A DNA stretch of 64,000 nucleotides, from contig CANLLN010000021.1 of NCBI GenBank assembly GCA_947491945.1, positions 1 through 64,000 of the forward strand, in the 5' to 3' direction. Shown one piece after another: positions 40,043 through 55,902 of this stretch. The notes beneath the pieces are model-generated. The model was not told the origin of the DNA. It made no database searches and was given only the letters and a program-made list of their open reading frames with translations. The DNA comes from an uncultured Carboxylicivirga sp. GTDB lineage: Bacteria > Bacteroidota > Bacteroidia > Bacteroidales > Marinilabiliaceae. The translations under genes and the position numbers were made by a program. Each line of letters opens with the position of its first letter. Position 1 is the stretch's first letter.

Positions 40043-40803
40043 CTTTAGATGAGATAAAAGATTTTCTTGACGAAAAGGTTGAAAAATATAACACCCCAGA
40101 TTTCATAACTGATGATCCTATCAGCATACCGCACCGTTTTTCGTTAAAAGAAGATATTGAAATTGCCGGATTTTTAGCTTCCACAATCGCGTGGGGTAAA
40201 CGTTCCATGATAATCAAAAGCGCGAATACAATAATGTCGATTATGGGAGATTCTCCATATGACTTTGTTATGGAGCATTCCGAAGATGACTTGGCAAAGA
40301 TAGAGGGTTCAATACATCGCACGTTTAATTCAATCGATCTCAGGTTTTTCGTTGCTTCACTACGGAATATATATGCCAATCACGGGGGATTAGAGGCTGT
40401 GTTTAGTAAATATGCCGCGCACGATTCATTGCTATACGCCATTCATAAATTCAAATCAGTATTCTTTGAAATCCCCCATGAACGTCGGACGATCAAACAC
40501 ATTGGGGATCCATTAGCCGGGTCGGCTGCAAAGAAAATCAATATGTTCCTTAGGTGGATGATAAGGGATGATAGTAGGGGTGTTGACTTTGGCATCTGGA
40601 AAGAAATCAGTCCGTCAATATTATCATGTCCCTTAGATGTGCACAGTGGCAATGTGGCACGTAAACTAGGTCTGTTAAAACGTAAGCAAAATGATGCCAA
40701 AGCGCTTGTTGAATTGGACGCCTGCTTGCGTAAGTTAGATGCTGCAGATCCCGTAAAATATGATTTTGCATTGTTCGGACTTGGCGTTTATGAAGGGTTT
40801 TAA
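40039..40803 (+). CDS. TIGR02757 family protein (DUF2400)
   Basis: A 254-residue protein of the DUF2400/TIGR02757 family. It shows the family's [14 protein letters not shown] segment, the [24 protein letters not shown] segment, and the [14 protein letters not shown] end with conserved aromatic residues. The helix-rich fold resembles HhH DNA-glycosylase-like proteins; its function is not established. It overlaps lolD by ATGA and is followed two bases later by trmN6. Confidence 0.85.
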
Positions 40804-40805
40804 TC

Positions 40806-41525
40806 ATGGCTAATAACTATTTTCAATTTAAACAGTTTACCGTTCATCAGGATAAGGCAGCCATGAAGGTGGGTACAGATGGTGTGTTATTGGGTGCCTG
40901 GGTCAATGTTCTGCCATGCAGTACCATATTGGATGTGGGTACCGGAACCGGTCTGATTGCTTTAATGATGGCTCAGCGTAATGATAGTGCGCTCATCAGC
41001 GCTATTGATATTGATGCAAAGGCGGTAGAACAGGCTAATGATAATTGCCGGCAGTCGCCCTGGGGCGAGCGCATAAAAGTAGAGCATATTACCCTGCAAA
41101 GCATGGAAATCCCTTGTGATGGGGGCTTTGATCATATTGTGTGTAACCCTCCATTTTTTATTAATGCCTACAAGGCCAATGATGCATCCCGAAATATGGC
41201 CAGGCATACCGATCACTTGTCTTTCGATGATTTAATACAGCATGCACACCGGCTTACCAATGACCGAGGGCGCCTCAGTGTTGTGTTGCCTTATGCTTGT
41301 AAGGATGATTTTACAACCCGTGCGCACAATTATGGTTTTTCCCTCGCTCGGTTTTGTGCGGTGCGTCCCACTCCTGCCAAAGGTTATGTGCGCTGCCTTA
41401 TGGAATTCTCTAAGCAGCCTTTGCCTCATCAGGAGCGGACTGAATTGGTTATTGAGGATAAGGGGCGCCATGGTTATTCCGATGATTATATTGCGCTAAC
41501 CAAAGCCTTCTACCTGGCCATGTGA
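40806..41525 (+). CDS. trmN6: tRNA1(Val) (adenine37-N6)-methyltransferase
   Basis: A 239-residue class I SAM methyltransferase. The motifs are MKVGTDGVLLGAW, the SAM-binding DVGTGTGLIA and the catalytic VCNPPFF (NPPF). It matches TrmN6 (YfiC), which methylates A37 of tRNA-Val, in length and motif order. It starts two bases after the DUF2400 gene. A tRNA-Val lies about 40 kb away at the window start, which is likely coincidence. Confidence 0.9.
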   Translation: MANNYFQFKQFTVHQDKAAMKVGTDGVLLGAWVNVLPCSTILDVGTGTGLIALMMAQRNDSALISAIDIDAKAVEQANDNCRQSPWGERIKVEHITLQSMEIPCDGGFDHIVCNPPFFINAYKANDASRNMARHTDHLSFDDLIQHAHRLTNDRGRLSVVLPYACKDDFTTRAHNYGFSLARFCAVRPTPAKGYVRCLMEFSKQPLPHQERTELVIEDKGRHGYSDDYIALTKAFYLAM

Positions 41526-41658
41526 GACCCTCTTTTGCGCATAAGGCTAATTATTGATCCCCTGTTTACATATCGTCTTGATTGTGAAATGCCTTCATTG
41601 GCTATGGTGATTCATGATAATTCAATAATAATCACTATTTTAGTTCCGGAAAACGACC

Positions 41659-42237
41659 ATGATGTTACGAAAGAAATATAGCGATAATGAACTTTTGGAA
41701 GCGGTTTACTCACGCGATAGTAAACTGATTAAGTATATCATGCAACTGGTGTGGAGTCAGGTGCGCGAGCTTGTTACCTCCAATAGTGGCACCAATGATG
41801 ATGCCATGCAAATTGTTCAGGAAGCCTTTGTGGCCATTTACTCAAAAAAGGAAAAACCAGTGCTGGTCAGTACTTTTAGTACCTATTTCGTGTCCATCTG
41901 CAAAAACTTATGGTATCACGAGTTGCGCAGGCGTAAAGTACGGCCCGTCTATCAGACCTTGCACGATGAGATCCCTGATCTGGATAATGAGATAAAAGAA
42001 AAGGAATTGTTTGAACAACGTCGTCAATTGTATCTGAAGTATTATAAAAAGATACAGAAGGTATGTCAGGATGTATTGCGTCTGATGGCCATGGGTTTTA
42101 CCAACGAGCATATCACAACGGAGCTGGCTTTTAGTTCGGTGGCTTATACCAGGAATAGAAAATCGATGTGTAATAAAAAATTGTTGGAGATGATTAAGGC
42201 TGATCCGCAATATAACGCCTTGAAGTATGGACTATAA
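41659..42237 (+). CDS. RNA polymerase sigma-70 family (ECF-type) factor
   Basis: A 192-residue sigma factor. Region 2 runs through DDAMQIVQEAFVAIYSK and TYFVSICKNLWYHELRRRK. Region 4 is the helix-turn-helix near VCQDVLRLMAMGFTNEHITTELAFSS. It overlaps the following membrane TPR gene by 11 bases, a sigma/anti-sigma type coupling. The spacer between regions 2 and 4 is long and charged. A second ATG three bases downstream is equally possible. It lies in the cluster with the TPR-CHAT protein and GG-peptide exporter; targets are unknown. The 133-base gap before it shows no strong promoter match. Confidence 0.88.
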   Translation: MMLRKKYSDNELLEAVYSRDSKLIKYIMQLVWSQVRELVTSNSGTNDDAMQIVQEAFVAIYSKKEKPVLVSTFSTYFVSICKNLWYHELRRRKVRPVYQTLHDEIPDLDNEIKEKELFEQRRQLYLKYYKKIQKVCQDVLRLMAMGFTNEHITTELAFSSVAYTRNRKSMCNKKLLEMIKADPQYNALKYGL

Positions 42238-42964
42238 TAAAAAGATTCTATCCTTTTTTACCGGTGAGTTGGATGCAGCACATCGTGAGGAGTTAAAGCT
42301 TGAAATGGCGGATAATGCAAAACTTCAAGAGGACATGAAGCTTCAGCAGGAAGTGTTGTATGCCATTGCCAATCATCAGGACGACTATTCTGATTTCAAA
42401 AATCAATTGGCTGATTTGGGTAATGAGTTCATGGAAGAGCAAGAAGCTAAGTCACCATCTTTTAAAATTAACTATTGGCTGGCTGCTGCCTCGCTTATCG
42501 TAGTGCTGGGCTTGGGTAGTTACCTGGGGCTTTTGCGCGACTCATCATACAGTGGTGGCCAGGCTTTTAATGAGTACTACGAGGCCTATGGTACTGATAT
42601 GATGGTAAGGGGCAATACCTCAACGGGTGTTTTTACTAAAGCTTTTGAGCAGTATCGCTCTGGTGATATCGCCAATGCACTTGTGTCGTTTGATGATTTA
42701 AGGTTGGAGAATGAGGAATTGGCCGGATTCTTCAGCGGGCTGTGCTACATTGAGATGGGCGATATGGAAAAGGCTCGTCAGGAGTTACGGTCTACACTCG
42801 ACATCGCTATTTTTTACGAGGCACAAATACGATGGTATCTGGCACTTTGTTATTTGAAGCTGGAAGAATACGAAGAGGCTGAACTATTGTTAACTCAGAT
42901 TGTGGCTGATGGGCATACTTATTCTGTAGAAGCCAGGTCCATCCTTAGTAAGTTAAAGGTTTAA
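42227..42964 (+). CDS. Membrane TPR protein, putative anti-sigma factor
   Basis: A 245-residue protein with an N-terminal cytoplasmic helical part (about residues 1-80), one transmembrane helix at about 82-103, and a periplasmic TPR-like part (about 135-245; for example AFEQYRSGDIANALVSFDDLRLENEELA). It overlaps the sigma gene by 11 bases. The topology of cytoplasmic domain, single span and periplasmic sensor is that of anti-sigma factors, although no ZAS zinc motif is seen. Its stop is two bases from the stop of the convergent CHAT gene. Confidence 0.72.
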   Translation: MDYNKKILSFFTGELDAAHREELKLEMADNAKLQEDMKLQQEVLYAIANHQDDYSDFKNQLADLGNEFMEEQEAKSPSFKINYWLAAASLIVVLGLGSYLGLLRDSSYSGGQAFNEYYEAYGTDMMVRGNTSTGVFTKAFEQYRSGDIANALVSFDDLRLENEELAGFFSGLCYIEMGDMEKARQELRSTLDIAIFYEAQIRWYLALCYLKLEEYEEAELLLTQIVADGHTYSVEARSILSKLKV

Positions 42965-42966
42965 TC

Positions 42967-45900
42967 CTATCGTCTGCGGATATAATAAAACACTAGCATG
43001 CCGCTTAAAAGTGCTAATGCCAAAAGAGTAATTCGCTTGCCTTTTGGCATTTTTTGTTCGATGGCATTGGTATTGCCCGACAATACATAGCTGGCCCAGT
43101 AATAGGGATGTGAGCGTATGCCATCGGCAGCTGCCAGGTAATTGAGTTTGCTTTCGCGCATAGCGCTATTCTTATTTAATCCATCTTTTAGTTTTGCATA
43201 AAAATGCTTGATAAGATTAGCTCCGCTTTGATCGTTTACCGGCCACAATGTCATTACTTGCGCCTCAACACCAGCAAAAGTAAAGGCGCGTGCAAGGCTG
43301 AGCAGTCCTTCTCCTTTATGCTTATATCCGCTGCCTGAACTGCAGGAGCTAAGCACTGCCAGTGGTGATTTGATATTGTAGTTATAGAGCTCTCCGGCTT
43401 TAAAACCCCCACTTTGGCCCTTGTGCGATGAAAATATTAATTGTGAGTTAAATGGTTGAGCCTCGTTGTTAATAGAGTGCATGGCAAGATGCAATATGGC
43501 ATCGCTTTGCATAGAGGCGATAAAGCGTGGGCGAGTAGCTTCTTCGCCCTCGAAAGCGATGACTGAGAAGCTGGATTCAATAGCCGATAACTCTTTCTGA
43601 GCACCGGGCAGTGAGGGCAATAGGCTATCGAGCTGACGCATTGTTTCCAAATTGATATTTTGCGGGTTGGTATGGCCTGAATAATGCGGGGCAAAGGCAA
43701 TTACCTTTTGAAATATACGAGCTTGAGAGCTTACGTTATTTAACAAGGCAGTATTGTAGGAGTAGCTAATGGCCTGTTGTTTGATTAGCCAGGGGTAATC
43801 TTTAAAGTTGGGTTTTTTGTGCGAGTAATCTTTAGTTAGTAGTGCTTCAAAAGCCAGGTATGATAACTCGGAATGCGGTACAATGATCAGTTCCTTATCG
43901 TTAATAAGTGACTGTACATCCCCAAGCAGTCTTTTATAAAGCAGATGAGCAGCACCTGCAAATCGTTGCATTTTTTCGGAGGTTCCCTGACCTACAAATG
44001 GATTGGACAGTTCTTCTATTACGCGTTGGAAGGATTGCTTGAAGGCAGCATCCTTGGGTATGATAGCGCAATGAAAAGTATCGGTATTGATGGTAAAGCG
44101 GAATATTTCCGTTTCTGTTTCATAGTAATCAATAATGCACTGATTGGCTTGCAAGCGTTGTTGTGTTTCAGCAATACTTAAGTAGGGACGTTGTGCCTTT
44201 TCTTGTTCGTACAGCGGAAAATCTATTTTAATGAGCATATTGATGCTGTCAATATTGGACATGCAGCGGTCCATTTGTTTATTTAGCTGAGCCAAAAGGG
44301 TACTGTCGGAGGAATGCGTAAACAAGGCATCGTTATAGCGCATCAGGTAGCGGTCGTATTGTTCTTTGTTTTTGTTTAAGGCATTGATCATATCAATGGG
44401 GACACCTGAGTTAAGTTTATACTGCTTATCTGCTACACCCTGTAGCAGTGCATACGACTTTCCCTTTTGTATGAAGTTAAATGCCTGATGCAGATATTGC
44501 TGATCATTGGTGGCCTTATGCAACGCCATCGCAATGGAAGCGCTATTCCGCGTAAAATCATCATATAGCTTACCGGTCACAAGGCGGTCACGATCATAGT
44601 ATTGCTTGCTCCTTAAACGTTCAAGTCCGCGACCGGCCGCTTCAATATAGGTCATAGCTTCTTTCAGGTGCGTAAGTTCATTGCTTGCACGATACTGCCT
44701 GTTAAGACCATGCGCCAGCTCTATGTTTACCTTGCGGTAGAGCATGGCAAAACGACTATCCTGAATGGAGGAGGCAGGGTCTTGCAGATGGGGGTATTTA
44801 GTCAGCATCTCATCGATAACCTGTGTAAGTAAACGGTAACTTTGGTGGTACTTATCAAGTCGATTGAAGCAAAGGGCTTTTTCATACTTGTTGTCCCAAA
44901 ACAGATAGTGGGTGTAATTTTTATTTTCAGAAAGTATCTGCCCCACGTTATTTAGGTGAAAGAGGCATTGGTTGTATTGACCCAGTTCATAATAGGCAAG
45001 GGCTAGTATATTCTCAAAATTTTTACTCAGGGGGAGTTTAAGCTGGTGGTAATACACTTGCTGAGCCGAATCAATATAAGCATAGGCTGTTTCGTCCTCA
45101 TAAAGCTTGGCCAGGTACTCGGCCGTTGATAAATAAGCGTCAGCAAGGTTTCTAAGATTACCTTGCTTGCTCTCGGCCACTTCCTTAAGTAGGTAGTATT
45201 TCATTTTATCATACTGCTGTAAGTCAAAATAGGTAGTGGCCAGTAGCATATGGGCCGAGCTGCGCGTGGGTTTTGAATAGTTGTTTAAAGATGTGATGGA
45301 TAATGTGCGGGTAGCGTACAGAATGCAGTTTGTGTAATTATTCTGTCGTTTATAGTGGTTGGCCAGGGAGATTAAAAAATTAGCGTACTCCTCTTTGAAT
45401 TGCAGCTCATGGTTTTCGTAGAATTTGGTGAGTGCTATAATTTCATGCTTAGCTTTGTCCTGCAAGCCCATACGCAGCAGTAAATCAATGTAGTTCTGGT
45501 AGAGAGCATGATTGTAATTGTTGATGTGCTGATTGAAAGGCTGAATCAGAGCCTCCTGCAATACACGATAGGCCTTTTCATATTGACGGTATTTGCCGTA
45601 CAGGGTGGCCGTATAAACTTCTACCGACACATTGTAACTCTCGTAGTTTTGGTTGTTGAGTAAATTTTTTTTCTCCAGTTCGAATGATTTAGCAAGATAA
45701 TTAAGGCGCTGGGCATGCTGCTCCTCTTGTCCATAAATAATTGATAGGTTATGGTATATTTTGGCACGAACAGAGTCTACCAGGAAGCCATTGTTTGGAT
45801 GTATTAGCAATTGGTTCAGCAGCACTTTAGCCTGTTGGGTGCGGTTGCAGGTTAATGCCATTATGCCTTGATATAGTTTTATGTAGTCGGCTAATAAAGG

Positions 45901-46191
45901 GTCGTCAGCCGGAGCATTTAGTGTTGTGATAAACGCATAGGCCTTATCTAGTTGCCGGGCATATAAAAACGAGCGAATGGTTTTATACAGTAGCCGAAAA
46001 CGCTCGTCATCTTGTGGGCGAATGCTATCGTAGCGTAAAATTTCGGCTCCTTTCTTTGCTGCAAGTGAATAATTCCCTGCCGAATAATGCTTCGTAAAAT
46101 ATAATATGTTGGTACTTGTTTCCTGGGAATGACTTTTATTTGAGGGTGCTAAAAGGCACATTATTAGTATGATAGTCTTAAGACTTTTCAT
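42967..46191 (-). CDS. Secreted TPR-CHAT domain protein (caspase-like peptidase)
   Basis: A 1,074-residue protein with a signal peptide, started at the ATG at 46191; an upstream TTG adds seven residues. About 600 residues of TPR repeats are followed by a CHAT domain. The catalytic His is H905 (LAMHSIN) and Cys is C950 (SSCSSGSG), both intact, and SLARAFTFAGV...LWPVND completes the family block. A C-terminal hydrophobic helix and RRR end (last 25 residues) anchors it in the membrane. CHAT peptidases are usually activated by partners through their TPR region. It shares an 84-base control region with a GG-leader peptide gene. Confidence 0.87.
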   Translation of the reverse strand: MKSLKTIILIMCLLAPSNKSHSQETSTNILYFTKHYSAGNYSLAAKKGAEILRYDSIRPQDDERFRLLYKTIRSFLYARQLDKAYAFITTLNAPADDPLLADYIKLYQGIMALTCNRTQQAKVLLNQLLIHPNNGFLVDSVRAKIYHNLSIIYGQEEQHAQRLNYLAKSFELEKKNLLNNQNYESYNVSVEVYTATLYGKYRQYEKAYRVLQEALIQPFNQHINNYNHALYQNYIDLLLRMGLQDKAKHEIIALTKFYENHELQFKEEYANFLISLANHYKRQNNYTNCILYATRTLSITSLNNYSKPTRSSAHMLLATTYFDLQQYDKMKYYLLKEVAESKQGNLRNLADAYLSTAEYLAKLYEDETAYAYIDSAQQVYYHQLKLPLSKNFENILALAYYELGQYNQCLFHLNNVGQILSENKNYTHYLFWDNKYEKALCFNRLDKYHQSYRLLTQVIDEMLTKYPHLQDPASSIQDSRFAMLYRKVNIELAHGLNRQYRASNELTHLKEAMTYIEAAGRGLERLRSKQYYDRDRLVTGKLYDDFTRNSASIAMALHKATNDQQYLHQAFNFIQKGKSYALLQGVADKQYKLNSGVPIDMINALNKNKEQYDRYLMRYNDALFTHSSDSTLLAQLNKQMDRCMSNIDSINMLIKIDFPLYEQEKAQRPYLSIAETQQRLQANQCIIDYYETETEIFRFTINTDTFHCAIIPKDAAFKQSFQRVIEELSNPFVGQGTSEKMQRFAGAAHLLYKRLLGDVQSLINDKELIIVPHSELSYLAFEALLTKDYSHKKPNFKDYPWLIKQQAISYSYNTALLNNVSSQARIFQKVIAFAPHYSGHTNPQNINLETMRQLDSLLPSLPGAQKELSAIESSFSVIAFEGEEATRPRFIASMQSDAILHLAMHSINNEAQPFNSQLIFSSHKGQSGGFKAGELYNYNIKSPLAVLSSCSSGSGYKHKGEGLLSLARAFTFAGVEAQVMTLWPVNDQSGANLIKHFYAKLKDGLNKNSAMRESKLNYLAAADGIRSHPYYWASYVLSGNTNAIEQKMPKGKRITLLALALLSGMLVFYYIRRR

Positions 46192-46220
46192 TTCTTCAAA
46201 AAAAAGTTTCAAAAATGGTG

Positions 46221-46234
46221 TTACGATTTACGAT
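46221..46234. repeat. Tandem 7-bp repeat TTACGAT x2 in the CHAT-peptide intergenic gap
   Basis: TTACGAT occurs twice head-to-tail at 46221-46227 and 46228-46234 in the 84-base divergent gap between the CHAT gene and the leader-peptide gene. The placement suggests a shared regulatory site. No -7 element is clear. Confidence 0.35.
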
Positions 46235-46275
46235 TTCTGCAATTAACCTATAGAAACCATTAACAAATCAAGATT

Positions 46276-46419
46276 ATGAGATCATCAGTTAACCCAAAGA
46301 AACAAGAGCAATATAAAAAGTTTATGGCAAAAGACGCTGCTTTTTTAAAAAAGGTTGTTGGCGGAGAAGGCACCGGAGCCAATCCTAAGCGTCCTGAGGA
46401 CATAAAAATTAAAATATAA
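46276..46419 (+). CDS. Small Gly-Gly-leader peptide precursor (47 residues)
   Basis: A complete 47-codon gene, too short for routine calling. The first 30 residues are a highly basic, helix-prone leader ending in KKVVGG. Cleavage after GG would release a 17-residue peptide (EGTGANPKRPEDIKIKI). The double-Gly site fits the C39 peptidase-ABC exporter encoded 1.7 kb downstream. No cysteine is present, so no disulphide or thioether modification is expected in the mature part. It lies between the divergent CHAT gene and a winged-helix gene. No homologue recognised; the cleavage site is inferred from the exporter. Confidence 0.7.
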   Translation: MRSSVNPKKQEQYKKFMAKDAAFLKKVVGGEGTGANPKRPEDIKIKI

Positions 46420-46509
46420 GTAATTCCTAAGTAGGTGTTAGGCGGCTTTGGACGAGTGCGCTGAGCGAAAAAGAGATTAGATATATTTAAGATTATCCCG
46501 ATTAGAAGA

Positions 46510-46618
46510 AGTCTGAATGCAGACTCACTGTAGGTGAAAAGAAGGTAGAGCGGTTCCCCCTGTAGATTCCCAAATTTTTACATTCCCCATAAACACCGTT
46601 CTCCTTCTTTACCTTACA
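46510..46618 (+). promoter_or_regulatory. RNA structural region upstream of the winged-helix gene
   Basis: A short perfect hairpin AGTCTG-AATG-CAGACT lies at 46510-46525. Downstream is a long imperfect stem: AAAGAAGG at 46538-46545 pairs with CCTTCTTT at 46603-46610, with inner CGGT/ACCG pairing. There is no T-tract. The rest of the gap (46420-46666) contains no gene. It might be an attenuator or riboregulator between the peptide and regulator genes. Confidence 0.4.
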
Positions 46619-46666
46619 TTGAGCTGGTTAATAGGAAATAAGTTGCCCCAGTACGAAGTTCACAAA

Positions 46667-46903
46667 ATGATTGCACTGATTGATGTTGAAATCAGAGGCA
46701 GGAAAACCGGCTCTCCTAACGTCCTTGCCGGGCGTTTGTGTATGTCGGTGCGTATGCTTTTCTTTTATATAGATACCATGAAGGCGCTGGGAGCTAGCAT
46801 ACGTTTTTCGAAGGAGAATAACACCTTTGAATATGAGCAGTCTGGATATTTTAAAGACGGCATTCAGTGGGTGCTTTGCAAGGCCGAAACCGGAACGGAA
46901 TGA
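46667..46903 (+). CDS. Small winged helix-turn-helix protein (HTH_11-like)
   Basis: A 78-residue protein if started at the ATG at 46667; the frame stays open to a TTG at 46619. The sequence follows the winged-helix pattern RGRKTGSPNVLAGRLCMSVRMLFFYIDTMKALGA, with wing residues SIRFSKENNTFEYEQSG. This matches the DeoR/WYL-type HTH_11 fold without an effector domain. It lies between the leader-peptide gene and the HlyD/C39 exporter genes, so it is a likely local regulator of this locus. Effector unknown. Confidence 0.7.
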   Translation: MIALIDVEIRGRKTGSPNVLAGRLCMSVRMLFFYIDTMKALGASIRFSKENNTFEYEQSGYFKDGIQWVLCKAETGTE

Positions 46904-46985
46904 TAGTTAGCAGGGCAATGTTAAGTTAGCTGTGTTGTTGCCAGCATTAAAAACACTACTTTTAGGCTGATAGCTAAGAAAAAAT

Positions 46986-48164
46986 ATGCCTGAAAAAATC
47001 TCCACAGAGGAACATCCTTACCGAAATAAATATCACAACTATACGCATATGCATTATCGGGGGCACAGTTTGTACTGGCTCTTGCTAATCATCGTTTTCG
47101 CAGTTTTAGGATCCCTGCCCTTTATCAAGGTGGATGTGTCGGTGCAAAGCCGCGGACAAATTAATGCTGTGCATAAAACAGTGGCACTAACGGCTCCACT
47201 AACAGCAAGAGTGAAGAGTATCTCCATGCATGAAAATTTAAGGGTAAAAAGGGGCGATACACTTGTGGTAATGGATCATAGCGGCATCTCAGGTGAGATG
47301 AACGCTATTAGGCAGCAACTGACTCTTCATCAGTCGTATATCGCAGACCTTAAGGCTTTGCGCCAAAGCAAAGAAGCTAAGCTGCAAACTCAGCTGTATA
47401 AAAGGGCATATGCCGATTATAGGCGCAGTATTGAAAAGCATGGGCGCAGAATCCAGAAGCTGAAGAATGATTTTAAGCGTACACAGTCTCTGTACAACGA
47501 CGGGGTAGTGCCCTCGTTGGAGCTGGAAGATGGAAAATTTAAGTTGGACGAAGCCCGCAATGAATTGGCTACTTATAAAACAGCCATGATGGCAGGTTGG
47601 GAGGGCGACCATCGGAATTATCTTTTATCAGTTCATGAGTTGAGGGGACGCATTGAACAGCTAAATCAGCAGCAACAGCAATATGTTTTAAGGGCACCCT
47701 TTGATGGTAGTGTGATTGATTTTAAAGGTATTGCCATCGGACATTTTTTAAATGAACAACAACATATAGCTTACCTATCGCCACACGAAGACCTAATCGC
47801 AGAGTGTTATCTGTCGCCGGGCGATATCGGTTTTATCCACGAGGGGATGCCGGTGAAACTACAGATAGACACTTATGATTATAATCAATGGGGGCTTATG
47901 GATGCCCGTGTTTTTGAGGTGGCTGATGATGTAACCATGAGGGAAGGACGTTATGCTTACCTGATTCGTTGCCGCCTTAGTAAGAATTACCTGAAATTGA
48001 AGCAAGGTCGTAAGGGGCCAATGAAAAAGGGGATGAGTTGCACGGCACGTTTTATAATTACGCGCCGCAGCTTATTTCAGCTATTGTTCGATAGTATTGA
48101 CGATTGGATCAACCCCAAAATAATGAACGAAACCAATTTTATCTCTCAAGCACCCAAACAATGA
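46986..48164 (+). CDS. HlyD-family membrane fusion protein
   Basis: A 392-residue inner-membrane-anchored protein. One transmembrane helix (about residues 30-50) is followed by a beta-barrel/lipoyl domain (VDVSVQSRGQINAV, LRVKRGDTLVVMD), a long coiled coil (about 90-220) and a second lipoyl half (YVLRAPFDGSVIDFKG). It would link the C39 ABC exporter to an outer-membrane channel; no TolC-type gene is adjacent. Its TGA overlaps the exporter ATG (ATGA), so they are translationally coupled. Confidence 0.87.
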   Translation: MPEKISTEEHPYRNKYHNYTHMHYRGHSLYWLLLIIVFAVLGSLPFIKVDVSVQSRGQINAVHKTVALTAPLTARVKSISMHENLRVKRGDTLVVMDHSGISGEMNAIRQQLTLHQSYIADLKALRQSKEAKLQTQLYKRAYADYRRSIEKHGRRIQKLKNDFKRTQSLYNDGVVPSLELEDGKFKLDEARNELATYKTAMMAGWEGDHRNYLLSVHELRGRIEQLNQQQQQYVLRAPFDGSVIDFKGIAIGHFLNEQQHIAYLSPHEDLIAECYLSPGDIGFIHEGMPVKLQIDTYDYNQWGLMDARVFEVADDVTMREGRYAYLIRCRLSKNYLKLKQGRKGPMKKGMSCTARFIITRRSLFQLLFDSIDDWINPKIMNETNFISQAPKQ

Positions 48165-50332
48165 CCCTTAACGTTCAGCAATTTGATGCCACTGACTGTG
48201 GAGCTGCCTGTCTGGCTTCCGTCGCACGATACTATAAATTATATCTGCCTTTGTGGACCATCCGACGCAAGGCGGGTACCAATCGTGGGGGCACCAGCGC
48301 TTATGGCCTTATCCGGGCAGCCGAGCAGCTGGGTTTTGACGCTAAGGGGATAGTGATCGAAGCGCACGAATTAAATGATTTACCTACACCGGCCATTGCT
48401 CACCTGAAGATGCCTGGGGGTACGCATCATTTTGTGGTTATTTATAGGGTGGGTAAGAAAATGATAAAAATTATGGATCCGGCAACGGGGCGTATGGAAA
48501 GACTGACCCAGCAAGCATTCCTGGAACGGTGGACAGGGGTGGCAGTGTTACTCATTCCTGCGGCACAGTTTCAAAAGGGTGATAAAACCGTGTCCAATAT
48601 AGGTCGTTTCGCTCGTCTTATCGGGCCGCACCGATCCGTATTTGTACAGGCGGGTTTTGGTGCTTTGGCTTTTTCATTGCTAGGTTTGTCTACAGCTTTT
48701 TACATTCAAAAACTGACCGATTTTGTGTTGGTGGGGCATAATCATAACTTACTTCACCTCATGGGTGTTATCATGATTTTAGTATTTATCACTCAGCTTC
48801 TTATTGGCATATTACAATCATGGTTTGTGCTGCGCGTGAGCCAAAATATCGATACCTCGCTTATCTCGGGTTATTTTAGGCATTTGATACGCTTGCCACA
48901 AAAGTTTTATGACAGTATGCGAATTGGTGAGCTGATAGCGCGTATTAACGATGCTGTTAAAATACGCAATTTTATCAATCAGGTGGCGGTAGAAGCTGTT
49001 GTTGATGCCCTTATTGTGCTAGTGGCCTTTGTGGTTATGTTCTTTTTCAGCTGGCGCCTGGCACTACTGGCTTACAGCGTTGTACCGCTTTACGTATTGT
49101 TGTTTTTTATTACCAATGCTTTTAACCGGCGGCTGGAGCGTGCCCGCATGGAGGAGACCGCCGAGCTGGAGATACAGCTTGTGGAGTCATTGAGGTCGGT
49201 TAAGACCATTAAGCAGATGGGTGCCGAGGGTCATTTTGCCGACGCTGTGGATCATCGTTTGATGCGTCTGCTTCATAAAGTATACCAGTCGGGTAAGATG
49301 GATATTTTTTCTGTTTCGGGCATGCAGTTGATTAATCGCTGCATTACGCTTGCAATTTTATGGTTGGGTGCCGGCCTTGTAATACAAACCGAACTAACAG
49401 CTGGCGAGCTCATGTCGTTTTTCGCTATAACGGCATTCTTCACAGGGCCAGTGGCACGCCTAACGGCTATTAATAAGAGTGTTCATGGAGCCCTCATTGC
49501 CATGGATCGACTTTTTGAGTTGCTGGAATTGGAGGCGGAGAGAGGCTCAGAGGATGGATTGCCCTTTACCCATGAGGATGTTGGGGAAATACAATTTTCA
49601 GGAGTGGATTTTTCTTATTCCCTGGAGCAGACTTTATTTTGTAATTTCTACGCTACCATAAAGCCCGGTGTCGTTACTGTATTGCTGGGTGATAGTGGCT
49701 CGGGTAAGTCCACACTGGCAGCACTTATACAGGGGCTTTATCCGTTGGATGGCGGACGCATTACCATTGGCGACTATGATGTAAGTCAGCTGTGCCTGGG
49801 TGATTTACGCCGTGTTGTGGGTATTGTGCCCCAGCAGATTGAACTTTTTGCCGGTAATGTTATTGATAATATTGCCCTGGGAGATGGTCAGCCCGATGTG
49901 CGCCGCATCAACGATATTATTAAAGCACTAAGGTTGAGTGAGTGCATTGAACATTTACCTGAAGGACTCTATACCTGGTTAGGCGAGAATGCAGTACAGC
50001 TATCGGGTGGCCAACGTCAGCGACTGGCCATAGCCCGTCTGTTGTATCTGAACCCGCAGGTGTATATCTTCGACGAGGCCACCTCGTATTTAGATGATCG
50101 CTCCGAGGCCGTGGTTAAGAAAGTAATAGAACAGCTCAAGGCCGATGGCAAAACCATAATAATGGTGGCACATCGCATGAGTGTTATGGATTTGGCTGAT
50201 GAGGTTATGGTTTTTGATCGGGGTAAGATTCTACAGGCGGGTAAGGTGGAAGTCCTCAAGACCGATCGGCAAGGGCGATTCTATGAGATGTGGAAACATC
50301 ACCATGGAGGGATGACTTTATCCGGAAAATAG
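48161..50332 (+). CDS. Peptidase-C39-containing ABC exporter (PCAT)
   Basis: A 723-residue protein from the ATG at 48161. An N-terminal C39 protease has the catalytic triad C13 (DATDCGAAC, with oxyanion Q7), H90 (THHFVVIY) and D106 (IMDPATG), all intact. It is followed by an exporter transmembrane domain (about residues 160-440) and an ATPase with Walker A GDSGSGKST from residue 510, LSGGQRQRLAIAR and DEATSYLD. PCATs remove a Gly-Gly leader and export the core peptide. The nearby 47-residue precursor is its best candidate substrate. Coupled to the HlyD gene. Confidence 0.93.
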   Translation: MTLNVQQFDATDCGAACLASVARYYKLYLPLWTIRRKAGTNRGGTSAYGLIRAAEQLGFDAKGIVIEAHELNDLPTPAIAHLKMPGGTHHFVVIYRVGKKMIKIMDPATGRMERLTQQAFLERWTGVAVLLIPAAQFQKGDKTVSNIGRFARLIGPHRSVFVQAGFGALAFSLLGLSTAFYIQKLTDFVLVGHNHNLLHLMGVIMILVFITQLLIGILQSWFVLRVSQNIDTSLISGYFRHLIRLPQKFYDSMRIGELIARINDAVKIRNFINQVAVEAVVDALIVLVAFVVMFFFSWRLALLAYSVVPLYVLLFFITNAFNRRLERARMEETAELEIQLVESLRSVKTIKQMGAEGHFADAVDHRLMRLLHKVYQSGKMDIFSVSGMQLINRCITLAILWLGAGLVIQTELTAGELMSFFAITAFFTGPVARLTAINKSVHGALIAMDRLFELLELEAERGSEDGLPFTHEDVGEIQFSGVDFSYSLEQTLFCNFYATIKPGVVTVLLGDSGSGKSTLAALIQGLYPLDGGRITIGDYDVSQLCLGDLRRVVGIVPQQIELFAGNVIDNIALGDGQPDVRRINDIIKALRLSECIEHLPEGLYTWLGENAVQLSGGQRQRLAIARLLYLNPQVYIFDEATSYLDDRSEAVVKKVIEQLKADGKTIIMVAHRMSVMDLADEVMVFDRGKILQAGKVEVLKTDRQGRFYEMWKHHHGGMTLSGK

Positions 50333-50413
50333 TTTGGCAGATATTAATGATTACCCTTGGCCTGCCAGCAGCTTAAAATGATGGCATGGGCAGTTTTCAA
50401 TATCAATTTTAGC

Positions 50414-50421
50414 TACTTTTG
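50414..50421 (+). promoter_or_regulatory. Putative MATE gene -7 element (TACTTTTG)
   Basis: TACTTTTG matches TAnnTTTG and lies 27 bases before the MATE ATG, separating it transcriptionally from the exporter genes. Confidence 0.4.
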
Positions 50422-50448
50422 TGCCTTCATTGTTTTAAGTTCAAGCAG

Positions 50449-51783
50449 ATGAAGAACAAATATGCAGCCCATTACTGGCCCAACCTAAAGCTGGCGACTC
50501 CGGTTGTGTTGTCGCAAGCCGGTCAGATGCTGGTTAACGTTGCCGATACCGTGATGGTAGGACGTGTGGGTACGATTCCCCTGGCCGCCGCCTCCTTTGC
50601 CAATAGTATCTTTATTAATGTATTGGTGCTGGGCATGGGTATTTCTTTTGCCCTCACACCGCTTGTGGGAAAGGCCTTTGGAGCTCGTGATAAGAAAGAA
50701 TGTGCCTACTGGTTTCAGCAGGGTATTTTTGCCAACCTTATCATCGGGGTTTTATTAACCTTGGTGGCCGGCGCCATTGTCTGGGCTATGCCCTACATGG
50801 GACAGGAGGATGGTGTTGCCGAAGCTGCTATACCCTATTATCTCTTACTAATTGCTTCCATCATACCACTTCAGCTTTTTAATAGTTACAAGCAGTTTGC
50901 CGAAGGTTTGAGTAACACTCGTATTGCCATGTTTATAACCATTGGCGGCAATGTGTTAAATGTGTTTCTCAATTACGTATTTATCTACGGCCACTTTGGT
51001 GCGCCGGCCCTGGGGCTGGTGGGTGCAGGCATCGGCACACTGGTATCGCGAATAGTAATGGCACTTGTTTTTGTGTGGCTGTCATATCAGATTCGCTTAT
51101 TTAAGGATTACCGGGGTTTTTATGTTACCCGTTTTTCGACCTCGGCTTTTGTGCGTATCTGGCGCTTGGGTCTTCCCATTGGTTTGCAGTCGGTCATTGA
51201 GGTATTTGCTTTTAGCCTGGGCAGTATTATGATGGGATGGTTGAATGCGGTGAGTCTGGCTGCACATCAAATTGTGTTAAGTATGGCCAGTGTAACTTAT
51301 ATGATGTCATCGGGGCTGGCTTCGGCAACCACCATTAAGGTGAGTATTCTGCGCGGGCGCAAGGAGTATGCAGCTCTTAAAGATAGTGCTTTCGCTTCGC
51401 TTCATCTGGTTATACTATTCATGACGGCCATGAGTGTGCTGTTTTTGCTCTTGCGTTACTGGCTGCCATCTCTTTTTGTCGATGAGCAAGAGGTGATTAA
51501 TGTGGCGGCTAGCTTGATGTTGGTAGCCGGGTTATTTCAGATATCGGATGGGATACAAGTAGTTGCACTTGGTATTTTACGCGGTCTGGAAGATGTGGTG
51601 ATGCCAGTGATTGGTGCCGGTGTGGCCTTTTTGCTGATTGCTTTGCCTACCGCTTATTTAAGTACTTTTACATTGGATATAGGCCCTATGGGCATATGGA
51701 TAGGTTATCTTTCGGGCCTGGTATCAGCCGGTAGTTTTTTGCTTTGGCGTTTCAGAATGTTATATCGTAAAAAATATGCCTGA
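50449..51783 (+). CDS. MATE family efflux transporter
   Basis: A 444-residue inner-membrane protein from the ATG at 50449. Twelve predicted transmembrane helices with the MATE motifs LATPVVLSQAGQMLVNVADTVMVGR and the second-half LPIGLQSVIEV segment. It is a Na+ or H+ driven exporter of cationic compounds (NorM-type). It follows the peptide-exporter genes but has its own promoter, so its link to them is uncertain. Substrate unknown. Confidence 0.9.
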   Translation: MKNKYAAHYWPNLKLATPVVLSQAGQMLVNVADTVMVGRVGTIPLAAASFANSIFINVLVLGMGISFALTPLVGKAFGARDKKECAYWFQQGIFANLIIGVLLTLVAGAIVWAMPYMGQEDGVAEAAIPYYLLLIASIIPLQLFNSYKQFAEGLSNTRIAMFITIGGNVLNVFLNYVFIYGHFGAPALGLVGAGIGTLVSRIVMALVFVWLSYQIRLFKDYRGFYVTRFSTSAFVRIWRLGLPIGLQSVIEVFAFSLGSIMMGWLNAVSLAAHQIVLSMASVTYMMSSGLASATTIKVSILRGRKEYAALKDSAFASLHLVILFMTAMSVLFLLLRYWLPSLFVDEQEVINVAASLMLVAGLFQISDGIQVVALGILRGLEDVVMPVIGAGVAFLLIALPTAYLSTFTLDIGPMGIWIGYLSGLVSAGSFLLWRFRMLYRKKYA

Positions 51784-51841
51784 AAACAGCCATTTGATTG
51801 TTGATGATTGGCATTACTAATGGTCGGAGTAAAATAAAGTT

Positions 51842-51863
51842 GCCCACCCCCTCAGGGGTAGGC
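51842..51863 (-). terminator. Weak hairpin, possible terminator of the small membrane gene
   Basis: An approximately 9-bp stem (GCCCACCCC/GGGGTAGGC, one mismatch) around CTCA lies just after the small gene's stop. On the minus strand it is followed by AACTTTATTTT, only moderately T-rich. Confidence 0.4.
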
Positions 51864-51873
51864 GATATTTTCC

Positions 51874-52044
51874 TCACTCAAGCACTCTGTTCAGAATAAT
51901 ATGAACGGCAATGCCACCAATAAGCAGTAGCGCGGCCAAAGCGAGCGGCGTGTTACTAACGATTGGATTCATGGCATAAACAGCCAAAACAACAACGCCG
52001 GCAATAATGAGGAGAATTCCGAAATTCTTAAGAAATGTATTCAT
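51874..52044 (-). CDS. Small two-helix membrane protein (56 residues)
   Basis: A 56-residue protein from the ATG at 52044. Two hydrophobic segments (about residues 8-25 and 31-49) separated by MNPIVSN, with few charges, indicate a hairpin inner-membrane protein. Such short conserved proteins occur in many Bacteroidota, function unknown. It is transcribed alone between the MATE gene and the ECF locus. Confidence 0.65.
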   Translation of the reverse strand: MNTFLKNFGILLIIAGVVVLAVYAMNPIVSNTPLALAALLLIGGIAVHIILNRVLE

Positions 52045-52156
52045 GGTGCAATTTTTATTAGGTATTTTTAAATATACAAACAATTCGTTTTTATTCAAAG
52101 TGACATGAGTAGCTTGATGTTGGCCATCGATTTTTTTGTAAAAAATGTTGTTGGTG

Positions 52157-52186
52157 TTCCAACCATGGCAGGCTTTTATCCGTCAT
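52157..52186 (+). promoter_or_regulatory. Putative ECF sigma promoter (TTCCAACC-N16-CGTCAT)
   Basis: TTCCAACC at 52157-52164, a 16-base spacer, and CGTCAT at 52181-52186, 21 bases before the lipoprotein ATG. The identical bipartite element occurs at 55079-55108 with the same spacer. AAC/CGTC is the core pattern of ECF promoters, and the sigma gene is in the operon it would drive, so it is probably autoregulated. Confidence 0.65.
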
Positions 52187-52207
52187 TAAAATAAGTAGAT
52201 TAGAAGA

Positions 52208-52948
52208 ATGAAGAAACACTATCTTTTACATACACTGTTTACCTTATTAATGTTCAGTAGTTGCCAGAAGGATGAGTTTACCTATCCCGTTGCGGTAAAG
52301 ATGGAAATTGCTATTGCTGAGGGAAATGCATCGCACCTTAATTTCACCCATGGATATATATTATTCGATCAGATAACTTTCGAAGGACAAAGGCGACAAG
52401 GTGAGGATGTGTATTTCGCCACCCGATCCGATGATGAAATTGGTCCTGTGTATTTCCAGTATGGAGATAAGGTTCGAGTGAAGGATTTTGATATTCCTCA
52501 AGGTATCTACAGCAGCATGCGATGGCGCTTTGAACTCGAGGACATGGATGATATTGGTGACGATACAGATTCGAGCAATTATGATGAAGTAGATGAAAAT
52601 CTGTTGGATGAGGGTGGATTACTGTTGGTGGGCAGTTATCGTGCGCTGGACGGCACAGTTTTACCTTTATACATAGTTGTTGATGACGGTGAGCTTTTGG
52701 TAGCAGATACAAAAGGAGGTGATTCGTATGGAGATATTACTTTATCGACAGAGAATACCTATAATGCCTGCTTGGTGTTGGATCCTTACTATGCCTTGCA
52801 AGCTGTAGCACCTGAATCGTTGGAGGCCGCCGAACGCAGTGATAATGATGGTGTGGAGTATATCGAAATATCAGAGGATGAGAATGAGGCCTTATTTGAA
52901 ATAATACTATACCGGCTGCAAAATTCAATAAGTGTAGTTATTGAATAG
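52208..52948 (+). CDS. Lipoprotein, first gene of the ECF sigma operon
   Basis: A 246-residue lipoprotein with signal peptide and lipobox FSSC (acylated C19). The remainder is beta-rich and strongly acidic, without known motif. Its architecture resembles the lipoprotein at 55156 (similar length, SYRALDGTVLPLYIVV versus SGTYDGTPFSIVS segments), and both look like DUF4382-type cell-surface or periplasmic proteins. It is followed 15 bases later by the sigma gene and is preceded by the ECF-type promoter. Probably a regulon product that acts in the envelope; role unknown. Confidence 0.72.
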   Translation: MKKHYLLHTLFTLLMFSSCQKDEFTYPVAVKMEIAIAEGNASHLNFTHGYILFDQITFEGQRRQGEDVYFATRSDDEIGPVYFQYGDKVRVKDFDIPQGIYSSMRWRFELEDMDDIGDDTDSSNYDEVDENLLDEGGLLLVGSYRALDGTVLPLYIVVDDGELLVADTKGGDSYGDITLSTENTYNACLVLDPYYALQAVAPESLEAAERSDNDGVEYIEISEDENEALFEIILYRLQNSISVVIE

Positions 52949-52963
52949 AACTTTATTGGGGCA

Positions 52964-53494
52964 ATGGATGATAATGATGAACAATTGCTGATAGCTTGTA
53001 GAAAAAATGAGCGTAAGGCACAGGAGCTGCTCTACCGTAAATATGCCGGTGAGATGCTGAGAATATGCCTGGCCTATGAGCCAGATCGCGACGCAGCAAA
53101 AGATATTTTACAGAATGCTTTTTTAAAGGTGTTTCGCAATATAGAAGCCTACAGTGGCGAGGGGGCTTTGAAGGCCTGGATACGAAGGATCATAACCAAT
53201 ACAGCCATTGATGCCTATCGCAAGCGGCAGCAAAGCCAAACCTTGCGGCTCGATGATCTGCAGGGAGCTATTGAGCCCTTTGAGGAGCAAAGCGATCCCC
53301 TGGTGTGTCAGGATTTGCTGCGCGAGGTTGAGAAGCTGCCCGATGGGGCACGCATGGTGTTTAATTTATATGCAATTGAAGGCTATGGCCATAAAGAAAT
53401 TGCTGAAAAACTAGGTATCAGCGAAGGTACCTCTAAGTCGCAGCTGAACAGGGCACGCAAGCTGTTGAATGAACAAATAATGAATAGTAACTAG
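52964..53494 (+). CDS. ECF-type RNA polymerase sigma factor
   Basis: A 176-residue ECF sigma factor. Region 2 is YRKYAGEMLRICLAYEPDRDAAKDILQNAFLKVFRN and KAWIRRIITNTAIDAYRKR; region 4 is the helix-turn-helix YAIEGYGHKEIAEKLGISEGTSKSQLNRARKLL. It directs RNA polymerase to a small promoter set, here probably the TTCCAACC-N16-CGTCAT sites at 52157 and 55079. It is followed four bases later by its putative membrane-bound anti-sigma factor. Confidence 0.93.
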   Translation: MDDNDEQLLIACRKNERKAQELLYRKYAGEMLRICLAYEPDRDAAKDILQNAFLKVFRNIEAYSGEGALKAWIRRIITNTAIDAYRKRQQSQTLRLDDLQGAIEPFEEQSDPLVCQDLLREVEKLPDGARMVFNLYAIEGYGHKEIAEKLGISEGTSKSQLNRARKLLNEQIMNSN

Positions 53495-53498
53495 GGTA

Positions 53499-54983
53499 AT
53501 GTCAGAAAAGGAATTCCATAAAAAATATAAGGCGCTGCTGGAGCAACTGGCAGCGGAAGCGCCTATGGATGTATGGGATGAGATTGCCAGTAAATTGGAT
53601 ACTGATGCCCGTGAGCTGCGCCTACAGGATGAGGAAAAGGCGCTGGTGGATGAGGTGTGGAATAAGCTGGAAGATGAGCTGGATATTGATCAGGTGTGGG
53701 GTAATATCGATGGCCAACTGAATGCCACTCAAAAGCGTCCGTTCTATCGCTCAATGCGTTATTGGCTGGCGGCAGCCATGGTTTTCCTAGTCATGGGCCT
53801 TATTTCCGTGCTGCACCTTTTTACCCGCGATCTGTCGCAGCCTTCATTGGTCGATAGAGGTAAGCAAGGCACGCAACAGGATGCTGAAGAAGTGAATTTA
53901 AAGGATGCGTTGCGGACACATCAGATCAAGCGCGATACCGTTAAAAATGTAAGGGGTGTCTATTGGCTTGATGAAGAAAAGATTGCAGATAATTCTTTGG
54001 CTACTGAGCCGTCAAATAAAAATATCACGGCACCGATTAAAGTACTACGTGAGGAGCCTGATGCCCCGGCGAATAATCTGTTTAGCCCCAATGAAGAAAG
54101 CAGTACCTTCGCTGGTTCTACCACCAATGCATCAGGCTCACTTTTAACAACACCCATGCTGGCCTATCTTAGTGAGCAGCCACCGGCCATCGACTTGTCC
54201 GGTGATTATACCCTTAGTCCCGAACTGGTGTTGCCGCAGGAAGATACGCCTTTTGAGCATTGGATGAAGGCTTTTAATTTGCCCGATTTAGTTGATGAAA
54301 AGGATGTACTGGCCTATGATCGGAAAGACAGCCGGTGGACGGCTGGTGTTGTAACAGCTATAAAAAATACTTACCTGATAAATGGCGAGACCATCGATGG
54401 ATTTTCATCATCGGGTTATAGCGATGCCAAAATTACCATTCAGCCCGATTGGGGACTGAATGTGCAATATGCCCTCAATCAGCGGCTTGTATTGTCGACC
54501 AACGTATTCTTATCATCATCATCAAAGCAAAGTTCCAGCACCTATCAGTATGGCGAGTATGTGAGCAAGGAAACGGCACTTACCTATGTCGCCACCGAGC
54601 TGGCACTAAAGCAAAATGCCAAACGCAGCCTTCTGGGCGATAAGGTGATTCGTCGTAATATGGCAGGGATTTATGTGGCACAGATGAGCGCTGCAAGTGA
54701 AACACAAACGGGCACTTCAAGCGATGTATCTTCCAAATATGCCAACTACGATTATGGTGTGTTGCTGGGGCAGGAGTTTGAGCTGCGCAGCAAAGGCCCG
54801 GTGAAGTTATCGGCCGGTATGGTAGCTAAGTTTGGTATTCCTAATGTTTATCAGGGAGATGCCGATACCCCGGGACATCTGAACAAAACACACAATGCCT
54901 CCATCGAGTTTCGGGTAGGTATTGCTTATCGTTGGAAAACAAAAGTGGGTGTTGATCGCTATCTGGGCGATCTGAAGAAATAA
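53499..54983 (+). CDS. Anti-sigma factor-like protein with C-terminal outer-membrane beta-barrel-like domain
   Basis: A 494-residue protein. The N-terminal cytoplasmic region (about residues 1-80, two WDEIASKL/VWNKLEDEL-type helical repeats) is followed by one transmembrane helix (about 87-107). The rest is a long Ser/Asn-rich linker, then from about residue 285 a barrel-like domain of alternating strands (WTAGVVTAIKNTYL, GLNVQYALNQRLVLSTNVF, EFRVGIAYRWKTKVGV). It lies four bases after the sigma gene, so an anti-sigma role is likely. An OM-barrel-like domain behind an inner-membrane anchor is unusual. Confidence 0.72.
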   Translation: MSEKEFHKKYKALLEQLAAEAPMDVWDEIASKLDTDARELRLQDEEKALVDEVWNKLEDELDIDQVWGNIDGQLNATQKRPFYRSMRYWLAAAMVFLVMGLISVLHLFTRDLSQPSLVDRGKQGTQQDAEEVNLKDALRTHQIKRDTVKNVRGVYWLDEEKIADNSLATEPSNKNITAPIKVLREEPDAPANNLFSPNEESSTFAGSTTNASGSLLTTPMLAYLSEQPPAIDLSGDYTLSPELVLPQEDTPFEHWMKAFNLPDLVDEKDVLAYDRKDSRWTAGVVTAIKNTYLINGETIDGFSSSGYSDAKITIQPDWGLNVQYALNQRLVLSTNVFLSSSSKQSSSTYQYGEYVSKETALTYVATELALKQNAKRSLLGDKVIRRNMAGIYVAQMSAASETQTGTSSDVSSKYANYDYGVLLGQEFELRSKGPVKLSAGMVAKFGIPNVYQGDADTPGHLNKTHNASIEFRVGIAYRWKTKVGVDRYLGDLKK

Positions 54984-55078
54984 AACCACCCAATCATCTA
55001 AAATACCTCTGTGTAATAATTTGTAGATCAGCTACATATTGAATTACTGAGTAATAATTTGAAAAAAAATCAAATTCA

Positions 55079-55108
55079 TTCCAACCTATCGGTCTATCCC
55101 CGCGTCAT
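55079..55108 (+). promoter_or_regulatory. Second ECF-type promoter (TTCCAACC-N16-CGTCAT)
   Basis: TTCCAACC at 55079-55086, 16-base spacer, CGTCAT at 55103-55108; 47 bases before the lipoprotein ATG. Both half-sites and the spacer length match the element at 52157 exactly. The preceding 100 bases contain only short AT-rich dyads. Confidence 0.65.
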
Positions 55109-55155
55109 GGTAGTAAAGAAACAAAAAACGAAGTATAACAAATAATTTAACGATC

Positions 55156-55902
55156 ATGAATTTATTTAAGAACCTATTTCTATTAGCCCTTAGTGTTGTG
55201 GTATTGGCAAGCTGTAATGATGATGATAACAATGCTGCCACAAGTAAAGTGAAAGTAGCTGTAAAAACTGTTAAAACATCAAGCCCGGGTTTAAAGGCTG
55301 CTGGTGAGTCTGCTGAAGATCCATTTCAGTTGGAAGTATTTATGATGAGCATTGGCGAAATAGAGTTTGATGTAAACGACGATATGGAAGATGTTATCCC
55401 CGGTGGTGACTCTATCTATAGCGATATTGATTTCGAAGGTCCTTTCCTGGTTGACATCTTATCACCCGATGCCGAGACAGGTATTGACCTGGCCGCTGCT
55501 AACGTGCCCAATGCAGTATACGAAGAAATCGAGTTTGACTTTGAGCCTTACGATAAGGAAGAGCCTGCTGCGATGGCCGGTAACACACTGATTGCTTCTG
55601 GTACTTATGACGGTACTCCTTTCTCTATTGTTAGTGACGAAGAGGTTGAACTTGAACTTGAATTTCCTAATGGTTATTCCCTTGAAGGAGCCGATTCGCG
55701 CTTATTTATTGAGTTGTATCTAACGCAGCTTATTGATTTGGTAAAAGCTATTGATTTTACAAATGTTGAGCTAGTTGATGGTGTTATCCTGATTAATAAA
55801 GATCATAACAAAGACATTCTTGATCAGTTCGAAGAGGCTGTTGAAAACTGCCTGGATATGGAAGAAGAAGGCGATGATGATGATGACAATGACGATGAGT
55901 AG
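55156..55902 (+). CDS. DUF4382-like lipoprotein, ECF regulon member
   Basis: A 248-residue lipoprotein with lipobox LASC (acylated C20). The body is very acidic with alternating beta-strands, ending in an Asp/Glu-rich tail (GDDDDDNDDE). Segments such as GPFLVDILSPD...GIDLAAANVPNAVYEEIEFDFE resemble the DUF4382 pattern. Similar in size and layout to the lipoprotein at 52208. The dedicated ECF promoter and neighbouring sigma gene suggest it is a regulon target; Ca2+ binding by the acidic tail is conceivable but unproven. Confidence 0.75.
   Translation: MNLFKNLFLLALSVVVLASCNDDDNNAATSKVKVAVKTVKTSSPGLKAAGESAEDPFQLEVFMMSIGEIEFDVNDDMEDVIPGGDSIYSDIDFEGPFLVDILSPDAETGIDLAAANVPNAVYEEIEFDFEPYDKEEPAAMAGNTLIASGTYDGTPFSIVSDEEVELELEFPNGYSLEGADSRLFIELYLTQLIDLVKAIDFTNVELVDGVILINKDHNKDILDQFEEAVENCLDMEEEGDDDDDNDDE

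Follow-up and report, generated by a model that had tools for sequence, protein, structure and literature searches.

A conserved double-glycine peptide locus in Carboxylicivirga with a promoter-like motif, a structured RNA and a candidate ECF sigma factor

The window analyzed here, a stretch of 64,000 nucleotides from contig CANLLN010000021.1 of an uncultured Carboxylicivirga sp. (GenBank assembly GCA_947491945.1), harbors a locus for a short peptide with a double-glycine (GG) leader. The precursor gene, an intact peptidase-containing ABC transporter (PCAT), a promoter-like motif whose phylogenetic distribution fits that of the precursor, a covarying structured RNA and a characteristic gene order can all be read directly from the sequence (Table 1). 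On balance, we lean towards the view that this locus provides a small secreted peptide of signal type under a dedicated extracytoplasmic function (ECF) sigma factor rather than a classical bacteriocin. The source genome comprises 4.9 Mb across 216 contigs. Relatives were sought in 71 genomes of the family, the source genome included, 14 of which form the genus, apparently Carboxylicivirga, and in 393 genomes drawn evenly across the order, again with the source genome among them.

Table 1. Features of the peptide locus (positions within the window) and the basis of their assignment
Feature	Position	Strand	Basis and remarks
ECF-type sigma factor	41662..42237	+	Sigma70_r2; open reading frame from 41659; alignment with most homologues begins at the second Met
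Membrane tetratricopeptide repeat (TPR) protein, possible anti-sigma	42227..42964	+	N-terminal helices, transmembrane helix at about 81-99, C-terminal TPR domain (alignment)
TPR-CHAT caspase-like protease	42967..46191	-	CHAT domain; signal-peptide-like start and C-terminal transmembrane-like helix (own reading)
Promoter-like motif TGTTACG-N12-TGCAATTAA	46219..46246	+	Sole copy (at most one mismatch) in the window's genome
Double-glycine leader, 30 aa	46276..46365	+	Translation, alignment, codon analysis; L(-7), V/I(-4), G(-2)G(-1) kept
17-residue core, KIKI at end, stop codon included	46366..46419	+	C-terminal tail conserved, middle variable
Structured RNA: CCCGAUU motif, 6-bp hairpin P1, long hairpin P2	46492..46625	+	Covariation, covariance model search
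Small helix-turn-helix (HTH)-like protein	46643..46903	+	Homologue starts, alignment, profile similarity; probable TTG start 46643
HlyD-type membrane fusion adaptor	46986..48164	+	Pfam HlyD_3 E 3e-13; TIGR01843 under its cut-off
C39 peptidase-containing ABC exporter (PCAT)	48161..50332	+	Pfam, NCBIfam, PCAT1 similarity, motif check

The precursor and its exporter

The open reading frame (ORF) of 47 codons at 46276-46419 (plus strand) translates into the leader MRSSVNPKKQEQYKKFMAKDAAFLKKVVGG and the core EGTGANPKRPEDIKIKI, and the earlier note on this DNA, which had described a basic GG leader followed by 17 residues free of cysteine, was right to regard it as a gene. The net charge of the leader is +6. 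Of the 167 ORFs in the window that start with ATG and span 35-70 codons, this one alone fits the pattern L(-7)xxxxGG. A search with the single sequence found the precursor in 15 of 60 genomes, and a search with the alignment extended this to 16 of the 71 family genomes, namely all 14 of the genus together with G022 and G032, which belong to two other genera. Two copies are present in each of the latter, in tandem in G022, while the second copy of G032 is complete only on another contig. In the order-wide set, the alignment search matched the source genome and none of the 392 others; since that set is poor in family members and includes none of the other 15 carriers, this result speaks for absence outside the family only.

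Codon changes within the leader are mostly silent. The median proportions of synonymous (pS) and nonsynonymous (pN) differences are 0.595 and 0.21, respectively, pN is lower than pS in 119 of the 120 pairs formed by 16 sequences (those of G032 left out), and the leader is, judged by these values, clearly under purifying selection. Together with its recurrence in 16 of the 71 genomes of the family, this argues that the precursor is more than a chance ORF. The leader consensus approximates to QFKKFxAKDxAFLKK[IV][VI]GG, with L(-7) and GG invariant in all 16 aligned precursors. The cores of these copies are 13-20 residues long, contain no cysteine (16/16) and vary in length and in the middle, but not in their tail: the last four residues are K (15/16) or T, then I/V/M/T, K/Q/R and I/L/F/V/W, so that K-[IVMT]-[KQR]-hydrophobic describes 15 of the 16. 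Core net charge is negative in 13, zero in two and +1 in the window. G032 ends in KIDV, and one of its two cores contains a cysteine. No Pfam or NCBIfam model matched the precursor at E<=1, and membership of a known precursor family was rejected on that ground; no description of this locus was recognized in the open-access papers searched.

Downstream on the same strand follow an HTH-like protein, an HlyD adaptor of 392 residues and the exporter. The exporter contains Peptidase_C39 (E 2e-33), ABC_membrane and ABC_tran domains, and its nearest solved sequence is PCAT1 (4ry2, E 5.6e-132). With numbering from the ATG at 48161, the catalytic residues C13/H90/D106, the Walker A and B motifs and LSGGQ are all preserved. 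Homologues place the start of the exporter there, in an ATGA overlap with the HlyD stop codon, and not at 48104. It is the only C39 protein of the genome (one match). Cleavage after GG and export of the core by PCAT and HlyD are predicted functions, and the cassette of precursor, regulator-like gene, adaptor and PCAT is complete as the earlier note had it. For the HTH-like protein, the winged-helix fold is weakly supported: there is no Pfam match, a single weak NCBIfam match (FeaR, E 0.028) and no significant hit of its profile among PDB sequences (best E 0.46), but the profile does resemble that of small HTH-like proteins encoded at other exporter loci (probability 96.8, E 3e-10). Its homologues favor the TTG at 46643 (86 residues) over the first TTG at 46619 (94 residues). 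The interval between the precursor and the gene for the MATE protein holds the HTH-like, HlyD and PCAT genes only, with no immunity or maturation gene in the cassette. A defence system was also considered and rejected, as PADLOC hits (E<=1e-5) were confined to the ABC portion of the exporter. Second PCAT loci, whose exporters are about 47-49% identical to this one, number eight in these genomes.

The promoter-like motif and the structured RNA

The precursor gene begins 30 bases past the motif, and every one of the 16 carrier genomes has this motif ahead of its precursor (15 loci and G032). Exact sites of the form TGTTACG-N12-TGCWATTAA number 83 and fall in exactly the 16 precursor genomes, with none in the other 55 of the family; the reversed pattern, used as a control, gave none across the 71 genomes. 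A search tolerating one mismatch (AATTAA form, 17 genomes) gave three control matches, and a looser pattern with two mismatches was dropped, being no better than its control.

Of the 67 exact sites that are not precursor promoters, 40 were retrieved with their surrounding DNA, along with a site on G032 contig C412 (L187). An ATG ORF of at least 75 residues begins 28-180 nt after 30 of these 40 sites; for 16,000 positions drawn at random from that DNA, the share is 9.2%. Among 42 sites examined for their first gene (the 40 exact ones, a near-exact one in L228 and that in L187), one could be assigned by our own rule at 37. The commonest is a family of about 200-235 residues (8/37; L204 2591-3262 and relatives), all eight members of which were scanned and gave no Pfam match over the cut-off. 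Seven of the 37 are small HTH-like proteins, and six belong to a family of 115-118 residues, five of which precede a 407-residue gene, assigned to HydF by Pfam in the one scanned. The motif also precedes four of the eight second PCAT loci, exactly in G004, G006 and G012 and with one mismatch in G008. Further first genes encode a DUF6261 protein (L203) and a LytTR protein (L196). We infer that the sigma factor at 41662 reads this motif, because the two co-occur in genomes.

Between the precursor and the HTH-like gene lies an RNA element that folds into a 6-bp hairpin plus a long hairpin; the loop they surround contains UUCCC and CCCGAUU in most copies. Standard pairs occupy 94.7% of the pair cells in an alignment of 17 copies (16 distinct), against 37-53% in slid controls, and compensatory changes on both sides occur in 7 of 13 pairs. 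Out of 500 shuffles none reached the observed covariation score or percentage paired and one reached the number of compensatory pairs, a test that overstates the case because the copies are related; further pair types showed no excess, 448 of the 500 shuffles being as high. At E<=0.1 the covariance model retrieved exactly the 16 precursor genomes among the 71, including G032 (E 6.5e-8), which was outside the set used to build it. G008 has three tandem copies (L025 9345-9474, 9534-9669, 9819-9952) with one precursor gene. Rfam returned only mir-1249 (15.9 bits, gathering threshold 83) and one match of 11.4 bits over the element, and none in L018. We take the element for a putative attenuator or processing element that would set the ratio of peptide to exporter, or else for a small RNA.

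A dispersed repeat was rejected as an explanation for this element: among eight genomes, three have a single occurrence of the P1 pattern and five have none, even where a letter-changed element is present. An intrinsic terminator was likewise rejected in the window, where a terminator scan called none at this place. In G011 (C65; L188 2094-2217) there is a second RNA match, of 28.9 bits (E 0.025), with similar loop letters, TTTCCC...TTTCCCGATT, on a different stem, and a wider RNA family is possible.

Divergent neighbors and gene order

The sigma factor matches Sigma70_r2 at 28.5 bits (cut-off 24) and no region-4 model, and scores 39.5 against TIGR02937 (cut-off 42.9). A relative was found in all nine genomes tested, including four in which it lies away from the peptide cassette. 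The adjoining gene, which overlaps it by 11 bases, encodes a membrane TPR protein whose TPR part resembles SycD/PcrH/CHIP; its AlphaFold model has a mean predicted local distance difference test score of only 62.6, with residues 39-119 below 50. It may be the anti-sigma factor of its neighbor; it has a transmembrane segment, and no anti-sigma model matched it.

On the opposite strand, next to the precursor, lies the gene for the Craspase/separase-like TPR-CHAT protease, whose start is better placed at 46191. The CHAT domain (PF12770) is recognized at E 3.7e-46, and H901/H905 and C950 are invariant in 16 of 16 sequences. The single sequence found no match among PDB sequences, and its profile found TPR proteins only. 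Relatives of near full length are present in the 16 genomes and in G026 (27%), with shorter CHAT-domain matches in others. Its signal-peptide-like start and C-terminal transmembrane-like helix suggest a place outside the cytoplasm.

All 15 fully readable loci, that of the window among them, show the order CHAT (divergent), precursor, HTH-like, HlyD, PCAT and MATE. Homologues beside C39 transporters in relatives, which the earlier note had named as a check, are thus found in 15 of 15 such loci, each time next to the same exporter, while G032 lacks a close exporter. There the HTH-like gene is followed by tRNA-Phe genes and an apparent M16-type peptidase (own reading) in place of the exporter, with sigma, TPR and CHAT genes beside the first precursor. 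CHAT divergently adjoins the precursor in 16 of 16 loci, G032 counted. The sigma and membrane TPR genes adjoin CHAT in 11 of the 15; in G001, G002, G005 and G007 the pair lies elsewhere beside genes for DUF2400 and a methyltransferase, whereas CHAT stays with the peptide cassette, a separation that may go back to a single break in one lineage. Pfam confirmed the labels MATE, DUF2400, methyltransferase and ABC ATPase in the window. The earlier note had ended with the precursor-exporter part and had overlooked the promoter motif, the RNA and the divergent protease, sigma factor and anti-sigma-like partner.

Several side observations concern these loci. Between CHAT and MATE in G026 (genome completeness 72%), promoter-like sequence and an RNA-like hairpin with a T-run are found (L109 2700-3420), and the peptide cassette is absent there. 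At L209 4976-5284, L210 274-618, L228 231-533, L229 216-524, L216 195-518 and L053 6207-6530, a small HTH-like protein carries a GG leader and a short core as a C-terminal fusion, and three of these six cores contain HFFGQ. Such a fusion is the first gene of the second PCAT locus in four Carboxylicivirga genomes, and is also found in G022, where the contig ends, and, next to a PCAT, in Echinicola; a DNA-binding-like protein here seems to be its own export precursor. The window also contains a second ECF sigma gene (Sigma70_r2, r4_2) followed by a 494-residue protein with no Pfam match (52964-54983), and the genes flanking this region at 52208 and 55156 have the look of acidic lipoproteins (own reading).

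Possible roles of the peptide and comparison with known systems

A signal or ligand is favored over a killing peptide because the core is short and cysteine-free, its tail is conserved, no immunity gene is present in the cassette and all 14 genus genomes carry it. Under this reading the sigma factor would be released from its membrane partner and RNA polymerase would transcribe from the motif through precursor, RNA and exporter genes; the PCAT would then bind the basic leader, cut after GG and send the 17-residue core out through HlyD, and the exported peptide would act as a signal or ligand on sister cells, either outside them or within their envelope. As a more speculative extension, which we put forward tentatively and hold to be rather improbable, an autoinduction circuit can be envisaged: the peptide tail would dock in the TPR solenoid of the membrane TPR-CHAT protein, the protease would cut the TPR anti-sigma, and the freed sigma factor would transcribe peptide, exporter, structured control RNA and, in some relatives, the second exporter locus.

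Several points weigh against the signal-type reading. Four of the eight second PCAT loci have no motif, and no copy was seen before the sigma gene. The tie between motif and sigma factor is co-occurrence within one clade, and another sigma factor of that clade would give the same pattern. The flanking ABC ATPase, DUF2400, methyltransferase and MATE genes are likewise syntenic, so that linkage of the cassette is partly plain vertical inheritance. In G026, CHAT, a sigma relative and an RNA-like element are present, yet the CHAT-MATE interval contains neither precursor nor exporter, and the genome has no exact motif. G032 has precursors and no close PCAT orthologue (best 29% identical), and both of its later-found precursors keep GG and carry M at -7. 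The core of the window itself has a net charge of +1, and 'acidic' would therefore be wrong for its own peptide. Its leader has K(-12) and F(-8), where the PCAT1 leader consensus (PMC6959990) has L(-12) and E(-8). Signalling, the anti-sigma role, cleavage and export, and the sigma-motif pairing are predictions from sequence.

The main alternative is a bacteriocin of narrow spectrum or a toxin-like peptide, for which immunity would be unlinked or built in. GG leader, PCAT and HlyD form a common bacteriocin layout, the core varies between species, and small hydrophobic GG peptides with a bacteriocin look (own reading) are present in five of the eight loci read in the family whose PCATs are about 47-49% identical. 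However, the cassette lacks an immunity gene, the cores are short and seldom positively charged, their tail is conserved, and 14 of 14 genus genomes carry the precursor; we regard this explanation as unlikely. The earlier note had proposed either a new bacteriocin or a signalling peptide, and of these the former is not borne out, there being no maturation gene either, while the latter fits better, as a prediction. Doubtful, and ranked behind the bacteriocin, is an envelope effector, that is, a peptide that reaches only the periplasm or surface and meets its partner there (e.g., as an inhibitor of CHAT) without passing from cell to cell: the constant divergent position of a protease with signal-peptide-like and transmembrane-like ends, and its staying with the cassette in the four genomes where sigma and TPR genes lie elsewhere, agree with this, but the structure predictions are of monomers and those four genomes may share one break. 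Least probable is the RNA as main product (attenuator or small RNA) with peptide and exporter added later, since its presence in all 16 genomes, the three tandem copies against one precursor in G008 and the hairpin with T-run in G026, where the peptide is absent at this place, are set against a leader clearly under purifying selection, two precursor copies each in G022 and G032, and the weakness of the G026 match (33.8 bits, E 2e-4 in a laxer 0.5-Mb search), which a stricter genome search did not report.

The preferred signal-type peptide can be compared with known systems. Pheromone loci of the ComC/BlpC type have a linked histidine kinase and response regulator; neither was found among the 16 genes of 39251-55902 scanned with Pfam. 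Receptors of the Rap/NprR (RRNPP) type are cytoplasmic TPR proteins that bind an exported peptide, and the likeness to them, which is confined to fold matches of the TPR domain, is weak because the unrelated MalT, APC/C subunits and LGN score the same. With PCAT1-CtA the locus shares the C39 triad, ABC core, GG site, L(-7), V/I(-4) and a small precursor beside the exporter (PMC6959990), and it adds an HlyD adaptor, a core of 13-20 residues with a conserved C-terminal tail and a sigma-type promoter motif. The bacteroidetocins are likewise Bacteroidota GG peptides with a C39-type ABC exporter, but the first two have cores of 42 residues with four cysteines and a transmembrane protein and (mostly) a thiol oxidoreductase encoded in the region (PMC6671954), whereas the core here has 17 residues without cysteine and the cassette has neither of these genes.

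In Craspase, the TPR-CHAT protease Csx29 acts on an inhibitor of an ECF sigma factor (PMC10028731). The inhibitor candidate of our locus has another architecture, and the ends of its CHAT protein suggest an extracytoplasmic place; Cas7-11 was not among the 16 neighboring genes scanned with Pfam, and the whole genome was not searched for it. DdvS/DdvA of Myxococcus combines an ECF sigma factor with a transmembrane anti-sigma (PDB 8rw5, 8rot; PMC4374960). There DdvA itself is the anti-sigma, whereas our locus encodes the anti-sigma-like part in a gene of its own and has a linked peptide exporter.

Precursor and PCAT represent double-glycine export of a known type, and it is the regulatory setting that is new. 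In our judgement, peptide signalling in Bacteroidota is still poorly understood. This locus combines, in marine bacteria, a GG peptide, its exporter, a sharp sigma-type motif, a TPR-CHAT protease and a covarying RNA, and both the structured RNA and the HTH-GG fusion peptides deserve study in their own right. Release of an ECF sigma factor by a CHAT protease in response to a peptide is made directly testable by it, and if the autoinduction circuit were true, it would constitute an extracytoplasmic quorum-type loop of a new kind in Bacteroidota, in which the receptor is caspase-like and not a kinase.

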